In this document: positions 7,490 through 16,111 of the stretch, in pieces | How the letters are laid out: each line of letters begins with the position of its first letter | Position numbering within the stretch: the first letter of the stretch is position 1 | Source of the DNA: a virus | DNA length: 36,778 nucleotides | IMG/VR virus record: IMGVR_UViG_3300010293_000018 | Span: 1 to 36,778 of that record | Strand: one strand, 5' to 3' | Translations under genes and position numbers: made by a program | The notes under the pieces: generated by a model | Databases searched by the model: none | What the model was told of the DNA's origin: nothing | Seen by the model: only the letters and a program-made list of their open reading frames with translations

Positions 7490-8038
7490 ATGAGTAGAGT
7501 AACAGAACAGATCTACAAAGAGCTTCGAGATTCGGAGTTCGAAATGCTGAATGAGAAAACCCTTGAAGTCGTCAAGGCCGCCATTTTTTGGCCGAACTTC
7601 GAAGGTCGACCCAACAAGTGGAATCAGACCGCTGTGACCTTCAACCTCGCCGTCAGCGACGCCGTCGCGGAAGACCTCGAGAAAATGGGTTTCCGCGTTC
7701 GGAAAAACAACATCGACGATGAGACGGTCCTCCGGTTTGTCAACATCAAGGTGAACATGAAATCCCAACAGCCGCCCTTGATCAAACTCCTGACGGAAAG
7801 CAAGGGCAAGAAAAGCGCGAGGATTCTCGACGATGAAGAAAAAATCAAGGTGCTCGACAGCGTCGACATCGAAGAAGCATCGTGTGTCATCAATCTCTAT
7901 GAATCCAGAGCGGTTCCGGGGAAAGTGACCGGATACCTCAAAAAGCTCGTCGTCGTTCAAAATCCGAAATCGACCTTCAACGGACGATATGACGATTGGG
8001 AAAAAAGCAACTTCGAGGGAGAAAACGACGAAGAATGA
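7490..8038 (+). CDS. Putative single-stranded DNA-binding protein
   Basis: This gene encodes 182 residues. ATG 7490 is chosen because AAAGGAGA is at 7473-7480; an in-frame start at 7442 falls in the hairpin. The core reads AIFWPNFEGRPNKWNQTAVTFNLAVSDAVAEDL...GFRVR, then RFVNIKVNMKS, then a long beta-rich part ending in a conserved YLKKLVVVQN strand and an acidic tail (GENDEE). This pattern of F-x-NF-x-G-x(3)-K-x-N, a strand, VNIKV and YLK is one I know from a Bacillota-phage family suspected to be SSB-like. The acidic C-terminal tip resembles SSB tails that recruit partners. The placement between polymerase and helicase fits. Codons are C/G-ending, which suggests high expression. The OB fold is inferred, not shown. 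Confidence 0.6.
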   Translation: MSRVTEQIYKELRDSEFEMLNEKTLEVVKAAIFWPNFEGRPNKWNQTAVTFNLAVSDAVAEDLEKMGFRVRKNNIDDETVLRFVNIKVNMKSQQPPLIKLLTESKGKKSARILDDEEKIKVLDSVDIEEASCVINLYESRAVPGKVTGYLKKLVVVQNPKSTFNGRYDDWEKSNFEGENDEE

Positions 8039-11223: not shown

Positions 11224-11264
11224 ATTGATTTTCCGGAAAGGATGACATCATGATTCAACTAGTT

Positions 11265-11735
11265 GTTCTGGCGCGACGAACGGGTCGTCGGGCATGCCGG
11301 ACTATTGAAATGATTCGAATTCCTCATTCGCAATAATACAATTGAATAGCGGGTTGGACCTTCGTTGGGCCCATACAAAAACCCGCCTGTAGTGGTAGGA
11401 AAGCTCGCTTGCGACCGTGAGCCGCGCCGAGACCTTTAAAGTATGCGAGTTGAACTCCATCGCCACAAATAAGCGACTCTCCATTACCCGGTGTCCCGAT
11501 ATGTCGCGTCGGCCCTACGACACCGCGGACCATCGTTTCACTGCCGCGCGGCCAGGTGGCTCGCGGCGAGGTCTGGTAGAGAGCATCCCCTAAGATCAGG
11601 AACAGAGAACAGGGATAGATAGCCGCCAGACCCCCAACCCCGAAGTCCCTAGTGGTAGAGATAGGCCACTCCATGGAACTCTTTAATGCCCCCGCACACA
11701 GATCGGCCCCGGGAGCGCCACGAGGGACTTTTTTG
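11265..11735 (+). ncRNA. Large structured non-coding RNA candidate (about 470 nt)
   Basis: No credible gene lies between 11224 and 11763. The segment is GC-rich against its AT-rich surroundings and is filled with local stems: CGACGA/TCGTCG (11274-11290); TATTG/CAATA enclosing AATGA/TCATT (11303-11335); GCGGGTT/AACCCGC (11349-11386); GCTCGC/GTGAGC (11403-11422); CGGTGTC/GACACCG enclosing CCGA/TCGG (11489-11525); GCCGCG/CGCGGC enclosing GCC/GGC (11543-11567); AAGTCCCT/AGGGACTT enclosing AGTGG/CCACT (11643-11730). The last stem runs into six Ts, so transcription likely ends there. This looks like an ornate phage RNA of the size class of ROOL or GOLLD RNAs; I cannot assign it to either from memory. 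The + orientation is inferred from the T-run and from the gene strand. Confidence 0.65.
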
Positions 11736-11739
11736 TTTT
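11643..11739 (+). terminator. Terminator closing the structured RNA
   Basis: Arms AAGTCCCT (11643-11650) and AGGGACTT (11723-11730) form an 8-bp outer stem holding an inner hairpin AGTGG/CCACT (11651-11670). TTTTTTGTTTT follows. It is unusual in enclosing about 70 bases, so it is both a 3' domain of the RNA and a probable intrinsic terminator. Confidence 0.55.
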
Positions 11740-11763
11740 AAATCCATAAAAGGAGAAATGAAA

Positions 11764-12378: not shown

Positions 12379-12588
12379 TTTCAGAGAAATGCCGTGGTGG
12401 CAATTCCTCAGCGCGCAGTTTCACCTCCTCCTTTCGCTCTGGACCATTGCGTCCCCGAAAACCCCCATGCCTGGGGTTTTTAACTCAGCGCCTACGCCTT
12501 AAAGTAGTAAAGGTCTGTTCTTCCGTCGCCTCCACGATCTCTAACAGGCTTTACTCGCCACGACAATTTCATTTTTAAAGGAGAAATC
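12379..12588 (+). ncRNA. Second structured intergenic segment
   Basis: These 210 bases hold no convincing gene. They contain an AAAACCCC/GGGGTTTT hairpin (12458-12480) and a nested stem AGTAAAG/CTTTACT (12506-12555) enclosing CTGTT/AACAG. The GC content is higher than in the flanking genes. It may be a small RNA, or a processed leader of the 12589 gene. It could also be a decayed gene. Confidence 0.35.
12458..12481 (+). terminator. Rho-independent terminator
   Basis: AAAACCCC (12458-12465), loop CATGCCT, GGGGTTTT (12473-12480), then T. The 8-bp stem with flanking A and T runs is the usual bidirectional terminator form. Confidence 0.65.
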
Positions 12589-13173
12589 ATGGATAAAAAA
12601 CAAACGCCCGTAGATCTTGATTTTGAAGAATTGAATCGGGATTTTGCAGAACGTCGAAAACAGGAACTTGACGCCTGTGGTTTTGGTTCGGAGACTCTGA
12701 GATTGGCTAGGGAAAAAAGAGATAACGAAAGACTTAGACGATTTCAAGAGGCCCCACGTGTTTACGCTATTTACCTTTTTGATAAAAAGGCTTTCAAAAA
12801 GTTTCCGTATCTGTTTTTGGAAAAGGCAGCCTTTACAAATCTTGTCACAAAATTCTATCCGAGGGCATGCAGTGCAATCTTGACAAATCGAAACGGCATG
12901 TCGGAAAATGGCTCATACCCAATCGTGGTTCTGCAAGCGATCATGCTCGATGTTTCAGATGATATTTACCAAGACGATGGGGAAGTATATATTTGGAGCA
13001 AAAAGCAAAAAAAATACTATCAGGTTGGTGTGCTGAGGCACTCTTTCACATCATTGGATCCAAAACCATGGGCGACATTGGAATTTTTTGACGAACGGTT
13101 CTCGAAATCAAAAGTGGATGTTTTTGATGTCTTTTGCGAGATGTCGAAAGGACCCTTGAAGGAGAAATCATGA
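12589..13173 (+). CDS. Hypothetical protein
   Basis: This gene encodes 194 residues, with AAAGGAGAAATC before the ATG. The N-terminal 60 residues are a charged helix (FEELNRDFAERRKQELDACGF...LRLAREKRDNERLRRF). The rest is a globular mixed alpha/beta domain with DGEVYIWSKKQKKYYQVGVLRH, which looks like paired strands. No known motif, membrane helix or metal site. The last bases overlap the start of the 13170 gene, so the two are co-translated. Family not recognised. Confidence 0.7.
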   Translation: MDKKQTPVDLDFEELNRDFAERRKQELDACGFGSETLRLAREKRDNERLRRFQEAPRVYAIYLFDKKAFKKFPYLFLEKAAFTNLVTKFYPRACSAILTNRNGMSENGSYPIVVLQAIMLDVSDDIYQDDGEVYIWSKKQKKYYQVGVLRHSFTSLDPKPWATLEFFDERFSKSKVDVFDVFCEMSKGPLKEKS

Positions 13174-15662: not shown

Positions 15663-15844
15663 GATATACTTGAGAGAAACTATCACACTATTCTTAATGT
15701 TAAGGGGGTGTTATGCGCCTTGTCAAAACTATGACAAATTTCTCATCCTTGTCAAAAGTTTTTGAGACTTTCGCGTATTTCACCCCCTAAACCGTGATAA
15801 AACCAAAAAAGATTTGACAAGAAAATACGGATTTGACAAGGCCA

Positions 15845-15887
15845 ACTATCCGTTTGGATAGCTACATGTGACTATCCGTTTGGATAG
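15845..15887 (+). promoter_or_regulatory. Two identical palindromes, candidate operators
   Basis: ACTATCCGTTTGGATAG occurs exactly at 15845-15861 and 15871-15887, 26 bases apart. Each holds CTATCC/GGATAG around GTTT. Twin palindromes next to an XRE gene fit operator sites OR1/OR2 for dimers. The spacing is about 2.5 helical turns. Confidence 0.65.
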
Positions 15888-15896
15888 TTGTGTCAT

Positions 15897-15925
15897 TTGT
15901 CAGAAATTTTACTAAAAAGTATTTA
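15897..15925 (+). promoter_or_regulatory. Candidate sigma-A promoter
   Basis: TTGTCA (15897-15902), 17-base spacer, TATTTA (15920-15925), in a very AT-rich stretch 10 bases after the second palindrome. The -10 box is imperfect. It would drive the nuclease genes at 16112 and beyond. The rest of 15663-16111 holds no gene. Confidence 0.35.
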
Positions 15926-16111
15926 AAAATAATTTTAATTATAAAAGTTTTTGGAAATATTTTTGACAAGTGACAAGGGGGTCAAAAACGCATCTTTTAC
16001 AAACACTTATTTTTTTTCGCCCACGCGTAAAATACAAGGACTTTTATGAGGAGAAGGATAAAATGCCTATTGGCATGGACAAAGCCTTTTATTTTTTGTC
16101 TGGAGGACATT

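Follow-up and report, generated by a model that had tools for sequence, protein, structure and literature searches.

A GC-rich non-coding gap separates two genes in the rightward early operon of a phage known from a 36.8-kb IMG/VR virus record. The window analyzed here is the whole of this record, all 36,778 nt of IMGVR_UViG_3300010293_000018. Its helicase shares 54% identity with the helicase of Faecalibacterium phage FP_oengus and at most 63% with those of the 68 relatives found by a helicase scan of IMG/VR. These values point to a tailed, Bacillota-type phage for which the collections searched contain no closely related sequence, and we describe the host phage as a gut- or rumen-type Bacillota phage. 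The HEYGH motif that names the downstream gene is of the HExxH type, and the genes neighboring the gap are all on the + strand. The following features are considered below:

11224..11763, + strand: non-coding GC-rich gap between the gene for a 136-aa protein (end 11223) and the HEYGH-motif gene (start 11764)
11236..11336, + strand: Shine-Dalgarno-like GGAAAGGA and a 28-codon ORF from ATG 11250 (MIQLVVLARRTGRRACRTIEMIRIPHSQ), read from the sequence; no family match, codon usage unlike phage genes
11245..11318, + strand: long imperfect hairpin, CGACGA/TCGTCG; z -2.3, a stability reached by 2% of shuffles; chosen post hoc
11570..11633, + strand: domain closed by GGTCTGG/CCAGACC, in both the minimum free energy (MFE) and centroid structures; z -1.8 for 11560-11640; chosen post hoc
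11643..11735, + strand: 3' domain with stem AAGTCCCTaGTGG/CCACgAGGGACTT followed by T6, a terminator-like end; z -2.2, 1.5% of shuffles; chosen post hoc
12384..12578, + strand: another non-coding element, downstream of the HEYGH gene; T5 follows its closing stem, and a terminator-like hairpin lies inside it at 12463-12481; z about -3

The first-pass annotation had described a gene-free, GC-rich segment in an AT-rich operon, and the sequence does show such a segment in an AT-richer phage. The + strand is gene-free from 11224 to about 11763, and GC content is 0.54 over 11224-11685, with a peak of 0.62 in 200-nt windows, compared with 0.43 for the whole window. We compared it with the non-coding gaps of 140 nt or longer in the window and its relatives, 151 in all, and the segment ranks first in GC excess. 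Ranks 2 and 3 are held by gaps of L002, the nearest relative found, and the gap that contains the L002 tmRNA falls within the top 12.

No ORF of at least 60 aa lies within 11224-11763 on the + strand, and the longest sense frame in the segment, at 64 aa, falls below the median for shuffles (80). The sense frames tested differ in codon usage from the phage's own genes, comparison of the frames tested with Pfam and PHROGs produced no convincing match, and the period-3 signal of the segment is low (480-nt score of 1.41, vs. a coding median of 4.5). A clear protein reading frame conserved in relatives had been named at the outset as evidence against an RNA; by length, codon usage and Pfam/PHROGs comparison, no protein signal was found on either strand. 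The segment is non-coding as far as these tests reach. The 28-codon frame, with GGAAAGGA and its ATG at 11250, is possibly the leftover of a gene start. Elsewhere in the window, between 22184 and 27087, at least six small ORFs carry a motif of the HYGVLGMRWG or KWGVRRFQN type near the N-terminus, a module repeated across different short genes.

Fold stability and the 3' closing stem

The segment had been proposed to hold an ornate RNA with at least seven local stems of 5-8 bp. Perfect stems of 5-7 bp do exist, but none reaches 8 bp (loop up to 60), and their number is that of shuffles; for fold stability the baseline was dinucleotide shuffles. With loops of up to 60, we counted 24 stems of at least 5 bp (21.8 ± 5.0 in shuffles), six of at least 6 bp (5.4 in shuffles) and three of at least 7 bp (1.5 in shuffles). 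The MFE of the whole segment was likewise at chance level (z = -0.05, with 46 of 100 shuffles equally or more stable; z -0.10 in a second run), 120-nt windows along the segment ranged from about -1.6 to +1.4, and its structural excess ranked only 142nd among the 151 gaps. Three sub-domains (11245-11318, 11560-11640, and 11641-11735) have z values of about -2, but these were selected after inspection. The claim of ornate structure is thus not sustained beyond chance: the composition of the segment is unusual, its folding is not. A z near zero is nevertheless only weak evidence against a structured RNA and no refutation, because with the same folding the real tmRNA of L002 scored only -1.2, and two of four true ROOLs from Lachnospiraceae genomes scored -1.5 and -1.8 (the other two, -6.3 and -6.4).

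The first-pass annotation also assigned the segment its own terminator. AAGTCCCTaGTGG (11643-11655) pairs with CCACgAGGGACTT (11718-11730) to form a closing stem of 13 bp with one mismatch, and T6 follows directly. The arms are separated by 62 nt, however, so that this is no tight hairpin, and an equally good inverted repeat occurs in 5% of whole-segment shuffles, which makes the closing stem borderline. A standard terminator scan called no terminator at the 3' end of the segment, because the arms lie so far apart; the closing stem and T6 may still terminate transcription. The element at 12384-12578 and an element at 7757-7980 in L002 likewise end in a long closing stem and a T-run.

The first of these lies downstream of the HEYGH gene and of a 41-aa ORF. 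Inside it are a terminator-like hairpin, CCCCATGCCTGGGGTTTTT, and an imperfect hairpin of 12 bp, and with z values of -2.9 and -3.0 it is better supported as a structured RNA than the segment at 11224-11763. It has no relative among phages and no sequence kinship with 11224-11763. The L002 element, 224 nt directly before the helicase gene, has a very long closing stem followed by TAACTTTTT and is very stable (z -6.2); it matched nothing in Rfam, or among phages by blastn.

Strong folding (z -6.7) was also observed in an AT-rich gap at 15663-16045 of the window, where inverted repeats of the TATCCGTTTGGATAG type recur alongside the motifs TTGACAAG/TTGTCAA. In many relatives, too, gaps past the early genes fold strongly, and such gaps are probably operator or promoter regions.

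Homologues and known large RNAs

Searches by DNA sequence, by flanking proteins and by structure recovered no homologue of the segment. Blastn against phages and against plasmids returned nothing or chance matches, and IMG/VR scans with the HEYGH protein and the 136-aa protein found no relative. None of the 68 relatives from the IMG/VR helicase scan was found with the segment. A search for its DNA in 47 relative records gave no homologue, nor did a search in nine genomes with related helicases, and 391 clostridial genomes from the class of the Butyrivibrio relative yielded a single 32-nt AT-rich chance match. IMG/VR pattern scans with pieces of the segment had no match, or matches in unrelated coding-looking sequence, and a covariance model built from 11560-11735 as its one sequence recovered only itself when applied to 41 phage records and 38 sequences. 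Among the sequences searched the segment thus appears to be an orphan, a status conditional on the collections, from which very near records may be absent. Kinship with the other GC-rich elements, both in the window and in L002, was considered in view of an 11-mer in common (ATGGAACTCTT, among other resemblances) and rejected, as alignment scores equaled those of shuffles.

GOLLD and ROOL, the large RNAs suggested as possible identities, are found in phages or prophages, often near tRNA islands, and form homo-oligomeric cages (PMC12286853). The Infernal cmscan search against Rfam recommended by the first-pass annotation matched no known RNA family: the whole window had no match at gathering scores, and the segment had just one chance lncRNA match at E ≤ 10. 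The ROOL (RF03087) and GOLLD (RF02032) models detected nothing in the segment at E ≤ 10, whereas the ROOL model recovered the true ROOLs in Lachnospiraceae genomes with 310-383 bits. The segment resembles ROOL in its phage or prophage location, its length of several hundred nucleotides and the absence of a protein, but it lacks a covariance match at E ≤ 10 and a nearby tRNA, and it folds more weakly than true ROOLs. With GOLLD it shares being phage-borne, large and non-coding; unlike GOLLD, it has no match at E ≤ 10 to RF02032, with its universally conserved 3' region, and no tRNA nearby, and it is shorter than many GOLLD members, which exceed 800 nt (PMC12286853).

A tmRNA was the third candidate. 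L002 has a true one at 11235-11634 (RF00023, 114 bits), with an encoded CCA and AGFKSRTVFSY as its predicted tag; no other tmRNA passed the cut-off in 47 related records. It sits immediately after its upstream gene, some 2 kb beyond the helicase, and the segment is similar to it in size and in this early-operon slot right after a small gene. The segment differs in having no tRNA-like ends, no CCA and no Rfam or ARAGORN match, while the same tools do detect the L002 tmRNA. ARAGORN found no tRNA or tmRNA in the 36.8-kb window. A tRNA-like array, prompted by the D-arm-like TGGTAGRRA at 11393, 11574, and 11653, was rejected when relaxed ARAGORN hits proved equal to those of shuffles; a triple repeat of this kind occurs in 3% of shuffles. 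Two further GC-rich gaps were noted in other records. One, at 13535-13830 of L002, is non-coding and has a D-arm-like stretch (GTACAATGGTAGTCTAGTAAAC; z -1.1), and the other, a long gap at 12245-12945 of L017, has internal GGCAATGG-type repeats and precedes a tRNA-Ile(TAT) gene at 13058.

Candidate explanations for the segment

What we observe is a non-coding, GC-rich segment with a closing stem and T6, absent from all sequences searched. Our tentative preference is for an orphan RNA element of one phage lineage, transcribed within the early operon. The segment would be transcribed as part of that operon, and its last ~90 nt would fold into a stem-closed domain in which the 13-bp stem and U6 end the transcript or help process it, placing the transcript end just before the HEYGH ribosome-binding site. 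The product would be a discrete RNA, structured and GC-rich and no longer than ~490 nt. Its likeliest role would be an accessory one, that of a small moron-like RNA acting early in infection and not of a core RNA of replication, because relatives with the same replication genes do not have the segment. The main argument for an RNA is by analogy with the L002 gaps, namely those of the tmRNA and the 224-nt element and a third, unexplained one: RNA genes appear plausible in such GC-rich gaps because one of those in L002 holds a genuine tmRNA and another a very stable structured element. The largest GC excess among the 151 gaps and the failure of protein-coding explanations add to it. The main arguments against an RNA are the chance-level folding and the lack of homologues in our searches; a plausible ribosome-binding site and ATG at the 5' end are odd for an RNA gene, and the closing stem is borderline.

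Almost as likely is a non-functional or recently acquired insert that took the place of an earlier gene here, either GC-rich DNA of foreign origin or a gene in decay. The ribosome-binding site and ATG 11250, followed by the 28-codon frame, would then be a surviving gene start, and the stems a chance product of GC-rich sequence. Stem counts and fold energy equal to those of shuffles, the orphan status of the segment and a composition that sets it apart from the remainder of the phage all agree with an insert. Phage genomes are tightly packed, however, and some 500 nt of dead DNA is rarely retained in them. The weak codon-like periodicity, which is not decisive for a decayed gene, the codon usage unlike that of phage genes and the lack of a protein family match also weigh against this reading.

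It is quite unlikely that the segment instead acts in cis as a leader for the HEYGH gene, with 11643-11735 as an attenuator-type terminator that governs read-through to the genes downstream and that may be coupled to translation of the 28-codon frame. The 3' domain (z -2.2), flush with T6 and ~30 nt ahead of the HEYGH start codon, and the small upstream ORF with its ribosome-binding site fit a leader; but no alternative antiterminator pairing was demonstrated, intrinsic terminators do not usually have arms 62 nt apart, and L003 has its HEYGH homologue immediately after the helicase, with no such segment between them. A distant GOLLD, ROOL, tmRNA or other known large RNA, to which phage location, size and the comparably placed L002 tmRNA would point, is highly improbable and already largely refuted by the searches at E ≤ 10 and by ARAGORN, relaxed or not. 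Equally hard to credit is a minus-strand protein gene in the 137-codon open frame at 11324-11737, which is matched in length by only 5.5% of shuffles but has codon usage unlike that of phage genes, no homologue found and neighbors that are all on the + strand.

A bolder reading is a new class of large phage RNAs in a narrow lineage of oengusvirus-like phages, whose early-operon slots would hold unrelated, fast-turning-over structured RNAs: the segment, the element at 12384-12578, the L002 element at 7757-7980, and the tmRNA. We regard this as rather unlikely. More generally, the stem-rich look of a GC-rich gap, without homologues or a transcript, is no evidence of an ornate RNA. If the segment does encode a real RNA, it would be one more phage-borne non-coding RNA without a known role, in an early-operon location where related phages carry different RNA genes.
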